Shown here piece by piece: positions 12,900-63,570 of a DNA stretch of 64,000 bases (its first letter is position 1; each line of letters starts with the position of its first letter). This stretch comes from a virus. The position numbers and the translations under genes were made by a program. The DNA lies in IMG/VR virus record IMGVR_UViG_3300042924_006566, positions 92,625 to 156,624 of that record. One strand, written 5' to 3'. Under the pieces are notes generated by a model. The model was not told the DNA's origin. It searched no databases and worked only from the letters and a program-made list of their open reading frames with translations.

Positions 12900-12907
12900 T
12901 ATTTATC
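12900..12907 (-). promoter_or_regulatory. Late-promoter-like GATAAATA
   Basis: One mismatch from TATAAATA, about 19 bases before the 12881 start and overlapping the stop of the preceding gene. Fits the late promoter series of this phage but is short for a full leader. Confidence 0.35.
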
Positions 12908-14009
12908 TAATTATCTGAATATCTTTTCCTGAGGTCCACACTTCAAGTTCATTGCGTAAACGGCCTTCCGATTTCAATGTGTCGTATCGATTCGATGCTT
13001 TATTTCGCCACCATCCAATCAAATTTACCAAATGATGTTTTTCATAGTTTTCGCCAGGAATAAGCATGTCCGACTTACAGTTAACATAATCCACCATATT
13101 TTTATAACCATAGTCACTGATATAATATCTTTTCTGTTCTGTCAACCCCTTAGCCTTCTCAATCGTTGCTTGGAATGAGCCGCCTTCAGAAGTACCTTTG
13201 AGTGCTGATTTGGTGAGAGCAATAATTCTCATGGTAGTTTTTAGCTTCTTACTGGAAGCATCCGGATCCACAATATCACCAATCTTGTCTTCCACAAAAT
13301 TTCTCAAATCTTCGTATGGCTTTCCGTGCATCAACGGCACAAAATCTGAATCAGTCAATCCTTTATAACGAATATATGGTTTCAAACCATCATATTGTGA
13401 TACTGTCTTAGAACTACCATAGAGACTTGTGGTTTCAAACAAACAAAAATTCATTCCATACTTCTTGTTAATGATTTCGCGTACTTCATGTGAAGTGCAA
13501 ATAAGTGCAAGAAGTTTACCACCAAGATAATTATAACCGAATGGTTGTGAAGGAACAATTACAAAACCCATCATGGCAGAATCATTGAATTGTTTTGCCC
13601 ATTCTGGTTGTTGTGTAAAAACCTGACCGAGCATTTCGTTTCTCGGCTTCATGTTAATAACGGGTGAACCGAGTCGAAGAAAACCAACAAATTTATTTGT
13701 ATTTGTTTCTCTGACAGCCAAACGAATCTGTCGACCAACTGGCGCAACATTAATATGTGATGATGTGATATTGAGTAATGTTTCCCATGTATCTTGTGCA
13801 ATTTCACACACTTCAAAATTCATATCTGATGGATGAATCGCAAAATTTGAAAACAAATCATCTTCAATCGGAAAAAGTGGATTAGTCGGTATCTCCGATA
13901 GAGATGCCAACTTTTGATCCTTCATGTATTCATCGATGCGATTAAAATTACCAAAATAATTTTCAAAAACTTTGGCACAATATAAAGCGTCATCAAACTT
14001 TAAATGCAC
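12903..14009 (-). CDS. DruA-like (DUF4338-type) protein, copy 1
   Basis: 368 residues from GTG 14009, which has AAGGA eight bases upstream and overlaps the gp41 end by 17 bases; a TTG at 14048 is the alternative. The core (about residues 90-230) reads GRQIRLAV, MKPRNEML, IVPSQPFGYNYLGGKLLAL, KYGMNFCLFETTSLYG and SQYDGL, in the same order as a second protein at 35940-37217. That pattern, with GR-L, PRD, a conserved P, the KYG segment and ET/TT, matches my recollection of DUF4338/DruA, the hallmark protein of the Druantia defence system. Its biochemistry is unknown. It sits inside the replication block downstream of gp41. Confidence 0.7.
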   Translation of the reverse strand: MHLKFDDALYCAKVFENYFGNFNRIDEYMKDQKLASLSEIPTNPLFPIEDDLFSNFAIHPSDMNFEVCEIAQDTWETLLNITSSHINVAPVGRQIRLAVRETNTNKFVGFLRLGSPVINMKPRNEMLGQVFTQQPEWAKQFNDSAMMGFVIVPSQPFGYNYLGGKLLALICTSHEVREIINKKYGMNFCLFETTSLYGSSKTVSQYDGLKPYIRYKGLTDSDFVPLMHGKPYEDLRNFVEDKIGDIVDPDASSKKLKTTMRIIALTKSALKGTSEGGSFQATIEKAKGLTEQKRYYISDYGYKNMVDYVNCKSDMLIPGENYEKHHLVNLIGWWRNKASNRYDTLKSEGRLRNELEVWTSGKDIQIIR

Positions 14010-15390
14010 TGAACTTGTCCTTCTTTGTGTTTCTTTCTCGGTCACCAAATGTGTTTAATGGTTTATCGGTAATTCCAGCATCCGCCAAACCATTTTGTGC
14101 TGATTGTTCAACATCATATAATCTCATTTTAGACCTGTCAATACCTAGAGCAAATCTTTTGAATTGTGTTGGATCTGAATAACGATTCTTCAATTGTTTG
14201 ACCATAATTTGCCCAAGTTCTTCCAATTCCTCTGACGAAACTAAAGCAAACATCATATCAGCAGTTGCTGGAAGACCAAACGATTCTGATGTATCTTCCA
14301 AACCAGGATCACTACTTGTAAATCCTGATCGTGTAGTTTGTGTAGCAGATACAATAGGAACATTGAACTCAACTGCTAGACCTCTAAGTTCTTCAGCAAT
14401 CGATTTAACATATGTGTATGAATTAATATTTGAACCTGGTTTAATACGGGAAGAACAACAGATGTTAAGATAATCGACAAAGATAATATCTGGTACAAAA
14501 GACTTTTTTAGATTAAGTTCATTCAAAAGTGTTCTGAAGTGTGTAACTGATGCTGATGCTGTTGGGTACTCTTTGATGATTAATTTACCAACAACTTTAT
14601 CTTTGATTCGATTAATTTTTTTATCATATAAATCTTTTGGTAGTTCAATCAATTCATCAACTGTGACATTCAAAAGATTCGCGTCAATACGTTCTGCAAT
14701 TTTTTCTTCAGCCATCTCAAGGGTGATATAAAGTACATTTTTACCCAAAGATAGACACGAAGCGGCAACATGACACATAAAGAGAGACTTGCCCACACCG
14801 GTACCAGCAAGAGCAACATTAAGAGTTTTGGCAGGAAGACCACCTTTTGTAATCTTGTTGAAGTATTCCAGGTCAAATGGGATTCTTTCTTCTTTTCTGT
14901 GGTAGAAGTCATATCGTTCATCTGAATTCTCCAAATAATCGTGGCCAACTGAATTGTCGAAACTTACTGCTAAGGCGTCCGATAGTATCTTGGGAATCGA
15001 ACCTTTGTCGTTTGTTTTGTCTTTTCCATCGAGAATAGAAATAGACCCCAATACTGCATTGTAGATAGCTTTTTCCTGACAAAACTTTTCTGTCTTGTCA
15101 ACAAGCCATTGAACCTGGGATTTTTCTGATGCAGTCTTTTCAATTTCTTTAAGATAAGATTCACATCTCTCCACTTCATCATTTGTGAGATTACGCCTCT
15201 CTTTGACGGCCAATTCAATTGCTTCAATCGATGGCGTGTTATTGTAAGTCTGTACGAACGATGAAATTTCATTGAATATAGTTTTATCTGTTCTATCGGT
15301 AAAATATTCTTCTTTTAGAAAAGGTAGGACTTTCCGTAAATATTCTTCATTGTAAACTAGGTTTTTCAGTATCGTCTGTTCCAGTTTCAT
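13993..15390 (-). CDS. 41: Replicative DNA helicase gp41
   Basis: 465 residues from ATG 15390; AGGAAA lies just upstream, so this is preferred over a TTG 18 bases earlier. The N-terminal 150 residues are the helical DnaB-type linker region; the RecA core has Walker A LAGTGVGKSLF near residue 195, Walker B DIIFVDYLNICC near 300 and the DnaB-like SATQTTR element. It unwinds DNA ahead of gp43 as a hexamer and normally works with primase gp61, which is not in this window. Length matches T4 gp41 (475). The gene overlaps the small protein upstream. Confidence 0.93.
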   Translation of the reverse strand: MKLEQTILKNLVYNEEYLRKVLPFLKEEYFTDRTDKTIFNEISSFVQTYNNTPSIEAIELAVKERRNLTNDEVERCESYLKEIEKTASEKSQVQWLVDKTEKFCQEKAIYNAVLGSISILDGKDKTNDKGSIPKILSDALAVSFDNSVGHDYLENSDERYDFYHRKEERIPFDLEYFNKITKGGLPAKTLNVALAGTGVGKSLFMCHVAASCLSLGKNVLYITLEMAEEKIAERIDANLLNVTVDELIELPKDLYDKKINRIKDKVVGKLIIKEYPTASASVTHFRTLLNELNLKKSFVPDIIFVDYLNICCSSRIKPGSNINSYTYVKSIAEELRGLAVEFNVPIVSATQTTRSGFTSSDPGLEDTSESFGLPATADMMFALVSSEELEELGQIMVKQLKNRYSDPTQFKRFALGIDRSKMRLYDVEQSAQNGLADAGITDKPLNTFGDRERNTKKDKFSAFKV

Positions 15391-15670
15391 CAATAATTTC
15401 CTGTTCAATATTGGATGACATGAGCTCTACGAGAAGGTCGCCTATGTAGTTTTTGAACTTCTCATCTTTTTCCATCTTTGATGGTTTCGCGTTTGTTGAT
15501 TCTATCACATCATACGCGAAAAGTAAATATACGGAATCGTTTTCTTCCTTAAATTTAACTTTACCGTATTTAAAAACAGTATCTTTATAAGGACCTTCCA
15601 GTAGCTTTATGTGTACCAACGAACTATCATTTTTCGGATAAATGAAACAGTAGTCTATACCTTCAATCAT
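15347..15670 (-). CDS. Small conserved protein between uvsX and gene 41
   Basis: 107 residues, starting inside the end of uvsX (8-base overlap) and ending inside gene 41. The N-terminal 60 residues are beta-rich (IDYCFIYPKNDSSLVHIKLL and a KVKFKEENDSVYLLFAYDV stretch), suggesting a small barrel; the C-terminus is acidic. Homologues in the same place are familiar from T4-like cyanophages, without known function. Its tight coupling suggests a role in replication or recombination. Confidence 0.75.
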   Translation of the reverse strand: MIEGIDYCFIYPKNDSSLVHIKLLEGPYKDTVFKYGKVKFKEENDSVYLLFAYDVIESTNAKPSKMEKDEKFKNYIGDLLVELMSSNIEQEIIDETGTDDTEKPSLQ

Positions 15671-35514: not shown

Positions 35515-35549
35515 TAAAAAAATGGGGAAAGCCACGAATGGCTTTCCCC
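35515..35549 (-). terminator. Terminator after small HTH gene
   Basis: Stem GGGGAAAGCCA/TGGCTTTCCCC with a CGAA loop on the plus strand (TTCG on the minus) and an ATTTTTTT run on the minus side. Confidence 0.9.
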
Positions 35550-35563
35550 TTTCTTAATGCTGT

Positions 35564-35833
35564 TTAGGCAGCAAAAGAATAACCGGAACGCAGAGCAGCA
35601 CGAACCATAGACTTGGTTGGTGTGCCAATACGATAAACGGAAACCTTAGTACCATCACCGCGAGTGCGTGTGTTGGTGTAGATAACATTGCCTTCTTGAC
35701 GAAGTTCTTCAATGCGAGCAGCAACATTCTGAATGCCGAAACGAGCACGAGCTTGTGCAACGCTCAGTGTATTGTAACCCTCACGCTTGCTGAGGAAGTT
35801 CAGAATCTTTTGCTTAGCAGAAAGTTTAGCCAT
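35564..35833 (-). CDS. Small winged-helix DNA-binding protein
   Basis: 89 residues from ATG 35833 with GGAG upstream. The helix-turn-helix region ILNFLSKREGYNTLSVAQAR then RFGIQNVAARIEELRQEG and a beta-wing DGTKVSVYRIGTPTK fit the winged-helix fold of small phage regulators. It has a strong promoter (TTGACA-17-TATGAT) and its own terminator, so it is a stand-alone early gene. The target is unknown; a regulator of early or middle transcription is inferred. Confidence 0.78.
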   Translation of the reverse strand: MAKLSAKQKILNFLSKREGYNTLSVAQARARFGIQNVAARIEELRQEGNVIYTNTRTRGDGTKVSVYRIGTPTKSMVRAALRSGYSFAA

Positions 35834-35888
35834 AATAATCACTCCTAAATGATAAAATTAAAAAACCTTGTTTGTAACAAGAATTCAC

Positions 35889-35917
35889 ATCATACTATTA
35901 TATAGTGAACTTGTCAA
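35889..35917 (-). promoter_or_regulatory. Sigma-70 promoter (TTGACA-17-TATGAT)
   Basis: -35 at 35912-35917 and -10 at 35889-35894, 17 bases apart. Drives the winged-helix gene. Confidence 0.8.
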
Positions 35918-35939: not shown

Positions 35940-37217
35940 TTATCTGCCAACTTGTGGCAGATATTTCTCTTTGGTTTCTTCCCAAGAGAGGAAAATCAAG
36001 TCATCATAGAATAGGTTTTCATAGGAAACCGTGTTCTTCTTTTTCAACATTGAAATTCTACCTTTGGCATATTTTGTTTTCCAAATATTAGCCAAAGTTT
36101 CTTCACTGGTATCAAATGATTTTACCAGTTTATCTTCACCAATTTCTTTCCGCAAAAATTCATTGGTGTTATCATAGAGAGGAGAAAAATAGATGCCTCT
36201 CTGATGTTCGGTACGAATTAAGTTCTTAGGTATCTGTAATTTTGAATAAGCAAAATTTAGAGAACGGTTTTTGTGATCTCGTTTCAGTGGTAATCCTTGA
36301 GGATTTTTTGCTTCCCACCATTCGAAATACTTACGTGTATGGTTCTCTTTAATCCAGTCGAAGACCATATTCATGGTTTTTCTTGTGGGTTCGAATGCAA
36401 CTGAACCACTGGAGAAACCCATCTTATTCCAATGTTCTAAACCGTCATACTGTGAAAGTCCATTTGATTTAGTATTTCCATAAAGTGATGTTGTTGTGAC
36501 ACCAACCAGAACATCACCATATTTTTGTTTCCAATCACTCTGTACAGTATCAGCCAGGCATAACAAAGCGAGTAATTTTCCACCCATGTAATTGTAACCT
36601 AGTGGTTGTAAAGGAACAATGGTCGAACCTATTGCTGTGTGGTTAATCATGTTTTGTTTGGTCTTAACATCTCTAGACCAACCAATTGCATTATCTCTCG
36701 GAGTCAAATCCAAGAAATCGGATGATATACAAATAACACCAAGATAGTTTCCAGTAACATCATCAACTACTGTATAGTATAAGTTACGGCCGATATTGGA
36801 GTTATTCTTCATTGTTGAAGAAAATGTACGTATAGTATTCCAAGTATCGGTTTCTTTTTCGTTGGAAAGAACCAATTTAGGCTTTAGATTCTGATAATCA
36901 TCAGGTTCTTTGGGCATCCAAAATTTACCTTTGACTTCATTGACTGTGCGCATTTGTTTATGGTCAAGCAACACAAGCTGTTCACCTTCAAAGGTGTTTC
37001 TTACTTCAGTAGGATACTTTTCATGTACTTCACACCACTTTTGATACAAAGTGTATTCTCTCACATCCATTTGTGAGGCATAAGTCAAGTCTTTTACCAA
37101 GACTTCTTTTAGTGTATCTGTTCCAATGTGTGTAAAACGAACGGGATCATTTATTGTTTTCCATTGATCCCATTGTTCTTCAACTGTAGGTATAGGCTTC
37201 TTGAACTTTTTTACCAT
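35940..37217 (-). CDS. DruA-like (DUF4338-type) protein, copy 2
   Basis: 425 residues. From about residue 140: GRNLYYTVVDDVTGNYLG, LTPRDNAIGWSRD, IVPLQPLGYNYMGGKLLAL, DWKQKYGDVLVGVTTTSLYG and SQYDGLEHW. This order is shared with the 12903-14009 protein and closely follows the DruA/DUF4338 pattern (GR-L-Y-V, PRDxxIGWS, later KYG and a Thr/Glu-T site). The C-terminus is positively charged (KKKNTVSYENLF). No nuclease motif is visible. It overlaps the deformylase gene by 38 bases and ends the uvsY-to-def operon. It is probably unrelated to host defence in this setting; role unknown. Confidence 0.75.
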   Translation of the reverse strand: MVKKFKKPIPTVEEQWDQWKTINDPVRFTHIGTDTLKEVLVKDLTYASQMDVREYTLYQKWCEVHEKYPTEVRNTFEGEQLVLLDHKQMRTVNEVKGKFWMPKEPDDYQNLKPKLVLSNEKETDTWNTIRTFSSTMKNNSNIGRNLYYTVVDDVTGNYLGVICISSDFLDLTPRDNAIGWSRDVKTKQNMINHTAIGSTIVPLQPLGYNYMGGKLLALLCLADTVQSDWKQKYGDVLVGVTTTSLYGNTKSNGLSQYDGLEHWNKMGFSSGSVAFEPTRKTMNMVFDWIKENHTRKYFEWWEAKNPQGLPLKRDHKNRSLNFAYSKLQIPKNLIRTEHQRGIYFSPLYDNTNEFLRKEIGEDKLVKSFDTSEETLANIWKTKYAKGRISMLKKKNTVSYENLFYDDLIFLSWEETKEKYLPQVGR

Positions 37218-37796: not shown

Positions 37797-38816
37797 TTAT
37801 TTCAAAAATACTTTGTTGTATTGATTATTCACACGAATAAATGTGGTGCATTTACTTAGTTGTTTTAAACTTGATGCACCAACATATGTACAAGAACTGC
37901 GCAAACCACCCAACAAATCGAGAACAGTATTTTTAACTGCACCACGATATGGCACTTCAACTGTTCGGCCTTCGCTGCTGCGATATTCTGCAACTCCTCC
38001 GTGGTGTTTATTCATGGCAGTATCACTGCTCATGCCATAGAATGTAACTTTGCCTCCATCGACTTGGCCTCCGCCTTCGTCATGACCTGCCAACATTCCA
38101 CCCAACATTACAAAATCAGCACCGGCACCAAATGCCTTAGCAACATCACCAGGACAAGTACAGCCACCATCAGCAATAATATGCGCTCCAAGACCGTGAG
38201 CTGCATCAGCGCATTCAATAATGGCGGATAATTGAGGATATCCAACACCTGTTTGAATCCTTGTAGTACAAACTGAACCGGGCCCAATACCAACTTTAAC
38301 AATATCTGCTCCACGTAAAATTAACTCCTGTGTCATATCTGCTGTAACCACATTACCTGCAATAATTGTATGCGAAGGATATCTTTCGCGAACTTTGGCA
38401 ACAAAGTCACCAAAATGTTCGCTGTAACCATTCGCCACATCAATACAAATAAACTTTAGATTGGGAAAAACATTCAGAATCTGTTGCAGTTTAGTCCAGT
38501 CTCTATCACTAGTTCCTGTGCTGATGGATAAAGATGTTTCGAATATAGAATCTTGATTGTCAATGAATGATTCCAAATCATAACTTTTCACCAAACAAGT
38601 AAACATTTCATGTTTGTATAAAGCCTCTGCCATTTTGAATGTGCCTACTCCGTCCATATTGGAGGCCATAATAGGAATTCCGGCCCATTCCACTTGACTA
38701 TGTTTAAATTTAAAATTTCGATATAAACTAACTTCTTTACGACTACTAAGAGTTGACCGTTTGGGACGAATTAATACATCCTGAAAATCCAATTTAACAT
38801 CATCTTCAATTCTCAT
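37797..38816 (-). CDS. guaC: GMP reductase
   Basis: 339 residues, close to E. coli GuaC (347). It opens with [30 protein letters not shown] carries the catalytic Cys of the IMPDH/GMPR barrel, followed by the flavin/nucleotide-binding [20 protein letters not shown] and [20 protein letters not shown]. No CBS domains are present, as in GuaC rather than GuaB. It converts GMP to IMP using NADPH, feeding adenine nucleotide synthesis. Coupled to gp46 by ATGA. Confidence 0.9.
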
Positions 38817-61194: not shown

Positions 61195-63570
61195 TCATGA
61201 TATCGTTGTTAACAATTGTGATATGTTATTCGATTTAACTTCTACTGATGTTGTAGTCGCAGTTGATGAAGATGTAACCGTCATATCAGTGGTTGAAAAA
61301 GCACTCATTGTTGGTGTGGCTATTGTTCGCGTGCCCGCAGAAATTGTAAATGTATTGGATCCAAGGGCATAAGTTCCTGTAAATGAGCCATCCGTTGGAT
61401 ATTTTATGAATGCAGTGTCATAATTACTATGTGGAGTAGATGTGTGTCTTATATAAAAACTAAAACCTATACTTGTAGGATTGAGTAATAATATTTGAAC
61501 CGGTGAAAAGCCTTGAAATCCGTTTCCACTGTAGTTACCACGAATGTGTCTTTGCCATAAAAGCGTGCCTGAAGGATTAAATTTTAAAATCGTTATTCCA
61601 TATATGGATCCAGGGTTTTGAACGGCCATATAGATATTACCATCATTATCTAATGTTAAACTATGTGGATACTGGCTCTCATTGACTCCTTTTTGCCATA
61701 ATAAATTACCGGAACTATCCCACTTAGTCAATAGACAATACTCATACAATCCGGCTGCTCTCGCTTGAGCGTTTCCGTTGCTGTATGCGCAAGCATAGAT
61801 ATTTTCAGATGAATCAACTTTTACTGCGTTAAATTCATTTACCACAAAATTTTGGGCGGTGTCGAAATATCTTTGCCACACGTAATTCCCGGAACTATCT
61901 AATTTCATTATAAATCCTCGGTACTGACCACCGAAATTGGAACTTGGATTATTATAATTTGTTGAACCCACAAAATAAATTTGATTATTTGTTGATATAT
62001 CAAATGTTTGAACTCCGTATGGACGAAATTTAACTTCGCCGTGCCGAGTATCAAAATTTTGCCCGATTGATGTTGGAGAAATAATTTCTTTTTCCCATTG
62101 TGGTGTGTATGAACTATTGTACTTAATAATACGATATTTGTGTTTCGTAGTTGTTTGGTAGTAACTTATAGGAGCAATTCCAACTCCAACACAAGCAAAA
62201 ATATTATTCGATGCATCTTTTTTAAGTGATGATCCTCCACCTATCGCTGTCACATCATAACCACTATAAGTTGTCTGTATAAATGGCACAGCATTATTGC
62301 TTACGGGATTGCCGTTTTTATCATATCTGTTCAAATATACACCGTTACCATCTCTTGTCGAACTTATGATGTTTCCAGAACTATCTTCGATAATTGCACC
62401 TGGCACCACCCCACCTCCTGGTGTAAATTTTGCCCATTGTATTATTCCTGATTTATTCAATTTTGTTGTAAATGATCCATCAGTTGATGAACTAGTCGTA
62501 TATGATTGACCATTTAAATAAATGTTTTCGTCACTGTCGGAATAAGCCCCACTTGGGCTTGAAAAAAGTAAACCCATGTTAGGGAAATAAAATGCACTGA
62601 GCCAATAACTATTAGTGACACTTACCACCCAATTTATAACTCTAGTGGCACTTCTTCCACTTGTATTCGCTGTGGCTGTTAGAAGTGTATTGGTGTTTCC
62701 AGCTGTTGTTGGTGTACCTGAAATTGTATTGCCGGATAATGTCAGACCTGTTGGTAAATTATTAGCTGTATACTGAACACCGTAACCAGCAGCACTGGTA
62801 GCATCCAAAGCCACATTGGATATTGCGGTGCCTGGTGCAACAGTATAAGTGTTTCCGCTTGGTGGTGAATTCCAAGTGACCACATCTGGATTTACCGTAA
62901 TACTAAATTGCCTATCGGTGTCTTGGTTTTGTCCATCGGTGGCACGGACCGTAAAGGTAAATGTTGTGGTGCTAGCAGTAGCTGAGCTTGTACCGCTAAT
63001 TAATCCATTTGCACTCAAAGAAGATCCAGTTGGCAGAGTTCCACTTTGCAGGCTATAACTAATAGGTGCATCACCAGTTGCAATAACGGTATTGCTGATT
63101 GCAGTTGTTTCGTAAACAGAACCTAAAGTTCCAGCTGCAGTTGACCAATCTGGTGTGCCGCTGTATTGAATACCTGGAACAGCAATAGCAGTTGCACCAT
63201 TTGGATTGATAACATAAACAATATAACTTCCAGTATTTTGAGCCGGACTCACAAATGTAACAGTTGTATTGCTGACAACTGTGACTGTACCTACAGCTTG
63301 GCCATTAATGATCACAGAAGCGCCATTACTGAAACCAGATCCTGTTAGTGTAATAACATCACCACCACCCGTGTTCGCTGCGGTGTTATCACCCGAATAA
63401 GATATGGTTGTTATTTTTGGTATAACAGGTGCCGGGCCTATGGTTCCTGTTGCGCCTGTGGGTCCTGTGGCACCAGTGGATCCTGTTGAACCTGTTGCAC
63501 CAGTAGAACCAATTGGTCCTGTAGCACCAGAAACTGTGTTGGTAATTACCGTGGATAATTTTGTGAACAT
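61195..63570 (-). CDS. Tail fibre with collagen, TIG, Ig and beta-propeller head
   Basis: 791 residues. The N-terminal 320 residues repeat the collagen-TIG-Ig module of the 59006 fibre almost word for word ([40 protein letters not shown]). The rest is different: from about 340 to 720 it holds repeats like MKLDSSGNYVWQRYF, TKWDSSGNLLWQKGV and LKFNPSGTLLWQRHI, each ending in a W-x-R/K strand, as in SBBP beta-propeller repeats. The end is beta-rich (LGSNTFTISAGTRTIATPTM). Fibre adaptors are shared and receptor-binding heads exchanged. Confidence 0.85.
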   Translation of the reverse strand: MFTKLSTVITNTVSGATGPIGSTGATGSTGSTGATGPTGATGTIGPAPVIPKITTISYSGDNTAANTGGGDVITLTGSGFSNGASVIINGQAVGTVTVVSNTTVTFVSPAQNTGSYIVYVINPNGATAIAVPGIQYSGTPDWSTAAGTLGSVYETTAISNTVIATGDAPISYSLQSGTLPTGSSLSANGLISGTSSATASTTTFTFTVRATDGQNQDTDRQFSITVNPDVVTWNSPPSGNTYTVAPGTAISNVALDATSAAGYGVQYTANNLPTGLTLSGNTISGTPTTAGNTNTLLTATANTSGRSATRVINWVVSVTNSYWLSAFYFPNMGLLFSSPSGAYSDSDENIYLNGQSYTTSSSTDGSFTTKLNKSGIIQWAKFTPGGGVVPGAIIEDSSGNIISSTRDGNGVYLNRYDKNGNPVSNNAVPFIQTTYSGYDVTAIGGGSSLKKDASNNIFACVGVGIAPISYYQTTTKHKYRIIKYNSSYTPQWEKEIISPTSIGQNFDTRHGEVKFRPYGVQTFDISTNNQIYFVGSTNYNNPSSNFGGQYRGFIMKLDSSGNYVWQRYFDTAQNFVVNEFNAVKVDSSENIYACAYSNGNAQARAAGLYEYCLLTKWDSSGNLLWQKGVNESQYPHSLTLDNDGNIYMAVQNPGSIYGITILKFNPSGTLLWQRHIRGNYSGNGFQGFSPVQILLLNPTSIGFSFYIRHTSTPHSNYDTAFIKYPTDGSFTGTYALGSNTFTISAGTRTIATPTMSAFSTTDMTVTSSSTATTTSVEVKSNNISQLLTTIS

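Follow-up and report, generated by a model that had tools for sequence, protein, structure and literature searches.

To our knowledge, no function is known for DruA in the bacterial anti-phage defence system Druantia, and the literature consulted on its mechanism treats Druantia III or YprA helicases rather than DruA itself. The domain shared by DruA-like proteins, PF14236 (DUF4338), has been called a GNAT domain (PMC10853773), and Mom of phage Mu is a GNAT as well (PMC7824862). In phages, DruA-like proteins of Synechococcus phages (S-PRM1 and others) were reported by Phold 2026 (PMC12774648). The window analysed here, a stretch of 64 kb, comes from a virus record of 156,624 bases that carries T4-like genes and whose gp23 shows 65% identity to Methylophilales phage Melnitz and Pelagibacter phage Mosig. 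Two DruA-family genes, termed copy 1 and copy 2, are found in the window, and the following features are referred to below:

12903-14048, minus strand: DruA-family copy 1 (frame of 381 aa, or about 368 aa from the likely start near codon 14)
13993-15408, minus strand: gp41-like replicative helicase gene adjoining copy 1, assigned by sequence and order
35889-35917, minus strand: sigma70-like promoter match TTGACA-17-TATGAT (11/12), after copy 2 and before the gene at 35564-35842
35940-37217, minus strand: DruA-family copy 2 (ATG start, 425 aa)
36150-36887, minus strand: PF14236/GNAT-like core of copy 2, residues 111-356 (hmmscan span, strand-helix order of the model, Foldseek)
36477-36497, minus strand: copy 2 motif TTTSLYG, residues 241-247, beta5 region (alignments)
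36570-36623, minus strand: copy 2 motif TIVPLQPLGYNYMGGKLL, residues 199-216, beta4-alpha3 junction (alignment and DSSP of the model)
36888-37217, minus strand: N-terminal region of copy 2 ahead of the PF14236 domain, about 110 residues
37180-37785, minus strand: peptide deformylase (PF01327, 9e-35), overlapping the copy 2 start
37797-38816, minus strand: GMP reductase/IMPDH-family gene (PF00478, 2.7e-70)
Contig 62095-62430, minus strand, outside the window: third PF14236 match

Copies 1 and 2 are genuine, conserved paralogues that belong to a domain family already known. Copy 2 matches PF14236 over residues 111-356 with 75.1 bits (hmmscan, E 6.9e-21), the curated cut-off of this model being 27 bits, and is also recovered by PADLOC DruA1 (E 9e-17) and PHROG 19197 (E 3.4e-27); for copy 1, the corresponding values are E 3.4e-12 against PF14236 and E 3.5e-135 against PHROG 19197. 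An earlier reading made from the letters alone (the sequence-only reading) had proposed that copy 2 is a second DruA-like paralogue with the same ordered motifs, and both proposals are borne out. Profiles built from 45 copy-2 and 26 copy-1 sequences align with a probability of 99.9 (hhalign, E 3.6e-34), far beyond chance, at 27% identity, and 26 positions are invariant across both families, including G143, G160, R174, Q204, P205, G207, N209, G212, G213, K214, T242, T243, S255 and Y257, the last two of which lie downstream of TTTSLYG in copy 2. The AlphaFold2 models (pLDDT 90.6 for copy 2 and 83.2 for copy 1), compared at the level of secondary structure, agree in an identical order of core strands and helices. 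The extra N-terminal region of copy 2 was overestimated at about 130 residues: since about 110 residues precede the domain in copy 2 and about 75-90 in copy 1, the actual surplus is roughly 35-45 residues. The TTG start of copy 1 at 14048 is doubtful, because its relatives start near codon 14 with frames of about 369 aa. At its own start, copy 2 overlaps the end of the deformylase gene with its first 38 bases. In comparison with relatives that are 81-86% identical, copy 2 shows dN of 0.10-0.14 and a saturated dS (>1.6), while copy 1 shows dN of 0.12-0.13 and dS >1.2 (saturated) against its own relatives; low dN with saturated dS identifies both as real, constrained genes and indicates strong purifying selection.

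The PF14236 family is not limited to this pair in the genome, and the description of two copies in one phage therefore holds for the pair only, as three PF14236 matches are present. The third gene is short (191 aa) and of a Ser/Mom-like type (locus L003, 1312-1887, minus strand). This type occurs sporadically, being found also in genomes G013 and G017 (193 aa) and in the IMG/VR loci L250 and L252.

In order to place the copies within the family, bacterial DruA references were taken from PADLOC DruA1, one of them lying within a DruA-DruB-DruC operon of plasmid pKF715A. Copy 2 aligns to bacterial DruA along 337 columns (hhalign, probability 99.6, E 6e-25). The PF14236 tree splits with support of 100/99 into a GGK branch, which holds Druantia-I DruA together with both phage copies, and a Ser branch, which holds transposon-fused and other DUF4338 proteins as well as the third phage gene. 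The expected clustering with DruA is thus recovered: in the trees, both copies group with authentic Druantia-I DruA, apart from the Ser branch, and copy 2, which clusters with DruA1, carries the GGK motif. A Druantia system is defined by an operon with DruB-DruE, including the DruE helicase, whereas the neighbours of copy 2 are T4-like replication genes. When a further marine phage clade is added to the tree, every phage gene of the GGK type falls into a single group (96/87), which includes genes from cyanophages, Pelagibacter phages and other marine T4-like phages. Separate entry of copies 1 and 2 is favoured by neither tree, although AU tests on the smaller tree do not reject it (p 0.12 and 0.21). 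Grouping of the third gene with copies 1 and 2 is rejected (AU p 0.008, smaller tree).

Relatives are also seen beyond these phages. When the copy 2 model is searched against BFVD, uncharacterised proteins of giant viruses match it strongly in structure (Faunusvirus A0A3G4ZXG3, E 1.2e-18; Yasminevirus; Dasosvirus), which, judged from the models, indicates that eukaryotic giant viruses carry a family resembling DruA. Among bacterial DUF4338 proteins, the domain is fused to transposase-like sequence in four loci (L436, L444, L449 and L454), with DDE_Tnp_1_assoc confirmed by Pfam in L436, and genome G284 carries three near-identical copies of such a fusion.

The predicted fold of both copies is GNAT-like, short of strict significance. 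Foldseek matches of the two models in the PDB are mostly GNAT enzymes at E 4e-3 to 7e-3 with probabilities up to 0.99, none of these below 1e-3; the best GNAT match of copy 2 has E 6.8e-3. The top match of copy 1 is malonyl-CoA decarboxylase (1.2e-3), an enzyme with a GNAT-like domain, and GNATs come next, from 4e-3 upwards. GNATs hold CoA, through its pyrophosphate, at the beta4-alpha3 junction. In the copy 2 model, the motif VPxQPxGxNxxGGKL is located at the junction of strand 4 and helix 3, and it may accordingly represent a CoA-pyrophosphate site.

The connection to Mom is seen only through the Ser-type branch, because direct comparisons fail: hhalign of copy 2 against Mom gives 0.7% and no match to the Mom family profile, and bacterial DruA against Mom gives no match either. 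The Ser-type PF14236 branch aligns to Mom (probability 85, E 6e-6), pairing HY, Ser124, Asp149, Tyr159 and Asn163, and one of its members matches both the PF14236 and the PF25680 (Mom) models of Pfam. Through this alignment, Ser124 of Mom falls on G213 of copy 2, and both copies have Gly-Gly-Lys there, with Gly instead of the Mom-type serine. At the level of structure, copy 1 matches Mom 8bv8, a PDB entry named 'inactive mutant S124A', with a probability of 0.99 and E 0.021 (Foldseek). This transitive chain from copy 2 to the Ser branch to Mom is suggestive. No PF25680 match is present in this genome, neither copy 2, nor its profile, nor the third gene found a match in a PDB sequence search, and a search of NCBIfam returned nothing relevant. 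One GenBank record names copy 1 'methylcarbamoylase mom', a name for which supporting evidence was not found. A full Mom gene (PF25680, 2.6e-50, annotated DUF465) is present in Melnitz-2, a phage closest by gp23 (MZ577096, 69571-70380; locus L342), which lacks a DruA-like gene. Melnitz-2 thus has Mom without DruA and 26 DruA phages are without Mom, but a single such case says little in favour of mutual exclusion.

Joint occurrence of the two copies was confirmed in related genomes, both being present in 15 of 15 close-relative contigs of at least 95 kb (this genome counted), as well as in HTVC008M and two other long contigs. Copy 2 is found alone in Mosig and genome G027, and copy 1 alone in cyanophage-type records. 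The sequence-only reading took the pair to imply distinct, retained roles. Retention is supported, and joint retention together with the occurrence of each copy alone elsewhere fits distinct, separately useful roles, which on this comparative evidence are likely. A tandem pair of DruA-like genes next to PhoH in another marine phage lineage (L510, 3968-5152 and 5139-6224) is a second case of two copies.

Proposed couplings to single neighbours fare less well. In 98 of 141 loci, the deformylase is the immediate upstream neighbour of copy 2, a frequent but not universal association. GMP reductase, also put forward as a partner of copy 2, is rejected, being absent from all 113 other loci; the gene at 37797-38816 is inserted between gp46 and the deformylase and is probably a recent acquisition. 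For copy 1, coupling to gp41 does not hold as a general rule, with gp41 upstream in 71 loci and other neighbours elsewhere: in cyanophages the gene is flanked by gp44 and gp62, and in HTVC008M it comes after gp43. Downstream of copy 2 are gp45, gp44 and gp62. The placement of copy 2 at the end of a uvsY operon is plausible but unproven, given that no strand switch follows, a promoter-like site is present and same-strand genes continue past copy 2 into gp45/44/62. A promoter signal for copy 2 was rejected, the total number of matches not being above chance. A strong terminator-like hairpin with a T-run (35524-35549, minus strand) follows the gene at 35564-35842.

A third phage sub-clade has its gene between gp43 and gp44 (one locus annotated so); the IMG/VR scan for this sub-clade matched 228 stretches, not all of which are proven members. 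Placement in the replisome region is hence seen in three sub-clades, as gp43-DruA-gp44, gp44-DruA-gp62 and, for copy 2, between gp46 and gp45. Genes of the phage clade almost always lie inside the replisome block (gp41, gp43-45, gp46/47, gp62) without other Druantia genes, an exception being the divergent locus L248, whose neighbours include structural genes. Since neighbours vary between loci, the usual constant is the replication block and not one partner gene. In Mosig (MT647606, 16272-19694; L164), 2OG-Fe(II) oxygenase-type genes are interleaved with gp46/47 and the deformylase beside the DruA copy.

As the best explanation, held tentatively and with somewhat less than even confidence, we propose that copies 1 and 2 are a replication-coupled GNAT-fold enzyme that modifies phage DNA by a chemistry unlike that of Mom. 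In this view, aquatic T4-like phages would have acquired, at an early date, a transferase with a GNAT fold that belongs to the DruA branch of Druantia type I, and would have retained it among their replication and recombination genes. Copy 2 would transfer a small group, presumably from a CoA-type cofactor, onto the DNA of the phage, probably where it is newly made at the replication fork, and DNA modified in this way would escape cutting by host nucleases. The copies would act like Mom of phage Mu with a different catalytic set, Gly-Gly-Lys standing in for Ser124, and might differ from each other in target base, sequence or timing. Fork DNA as the place of action is suggested by a constrained phage clade, often in two copies, that lies between polymerase, clamp-loader and helicase genes. 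No D12 or N6/N4 DNA methyltransferase was detected in eight searched DruA-carrying phage records, which counts for DNA modification.

Replisome placement also fits a non-enzymatic role, which argues against DNA modification: the proteins could be an accessory DNA-binding part of the replication/recombination machinery, usually encoded near gp41, gp43-46 or gp62, that kept the GNAT fold and lost its chemistry. The GGK branch has indeed not kept the Ser, Asp, His and Asn positions typical of Mom, but invariant residues (QPxGxNxxGGKL, TT, S, Y) cluster densely at the predicted cofactor site, which suggests retained ligand binding, and we regard this role as unlikely. The GNAT fold is likewise compatible with a protein- or tRNA-directed acyltransferase for host takeover, a role favoured by the deformylase neighbour and by other phage GNATs that target host RNA polymerase (PMC7824862). 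With nearest relatives that are DNA-defence or transposon-borne proteins, with DNA modification (Mom) as the closest sequence-linked function in the fold group and with placement at the replisome, an acyltransferase of this kind seems more improbable still.

Clustering with Druantia-I DruA could, in turn, reflect a decoy for counter-defence, a DruA derivative by which Druantia complexes of the host are poisoned. This is very unlikely for a clade that is old and has diverged deeply (branch length 1.8-2.2 for copy 1), with two copies per genome and a retained putative active site, kept in phages whose hosts are not known here to carry Druantia. Least credible, and barely worth retaining, is a Druantia remnant serving as a phage-borne defence gene against competing phages, which is suggested by the PADLOC and Pfam names but is at odds with a neighbourhood of T4-like core genes showing no sign of DruB, DruC, DruD or DruE, and with a core-operon position common to several phage lineages.

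A broader but doubtful reading is that the GGK branch is a second kind of Mom-related, replisome-coupled DNA hypermodification enzyme and that Druantia-I DruA marks host DNA, in which case Druantia I would be a modification-based (self/non-self) defence. The sequence bridge from DUF4338 to Mom provides a concrete hypothesis for the role of DruA-like proteins, and the phage clade offers cultured phages in which function can be measured.

While DruA-like phage proteins have already been reported, the pairing, the replisome placement and the two-branch split look new. With Druantia type I DruA, copy 2 shares the domain, the GGK motif, the motif order along 337 aligned columns and a sister-group position in the trees, but identity is 19%, QPxGxN replaces PPYN, more residues are invariant specifically in phages, and copy 2 stands alone in a phage replication block with no other Druantia genes seen. 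The Synechococcus phage proteins of PHROG 19197 are orthologues of copy 1 (40-51% identity), whereas copy 2 forms a separate clade that is absent from the isolated cyanophages found. Orthologues of copy 2 are the DUF4338 protein of Pelagibacter phage Mosig (QOI68986, 57%), where a deformylase is again upstream, and gp106 of HTVC008M (53%), where a JmjC/cupin gene takes the deformylase place; both loci differ from the one described here in having no GMP reductase. Mom of phage Mu (PF25680; PDB 8bv8) resembles the copies in its GNAT fold and is linked to them via the Ser branch and the Foldseek match of copy 1, but it has no direct profile match to copy 2, in which the catalytic Ser position is Gly. 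Finally, transposon-fused DUF4338 proteins (L436, L454) and the third phage gene belong to the same Pfam family as copies 1 and 2, and the transposon-fused proteins have the RD..IGW motif in common, whereas the Ser branch is set apart as a separate branch (100/99) with the Ser/Thr motif LAS[RK] or N[LA]G[ST].
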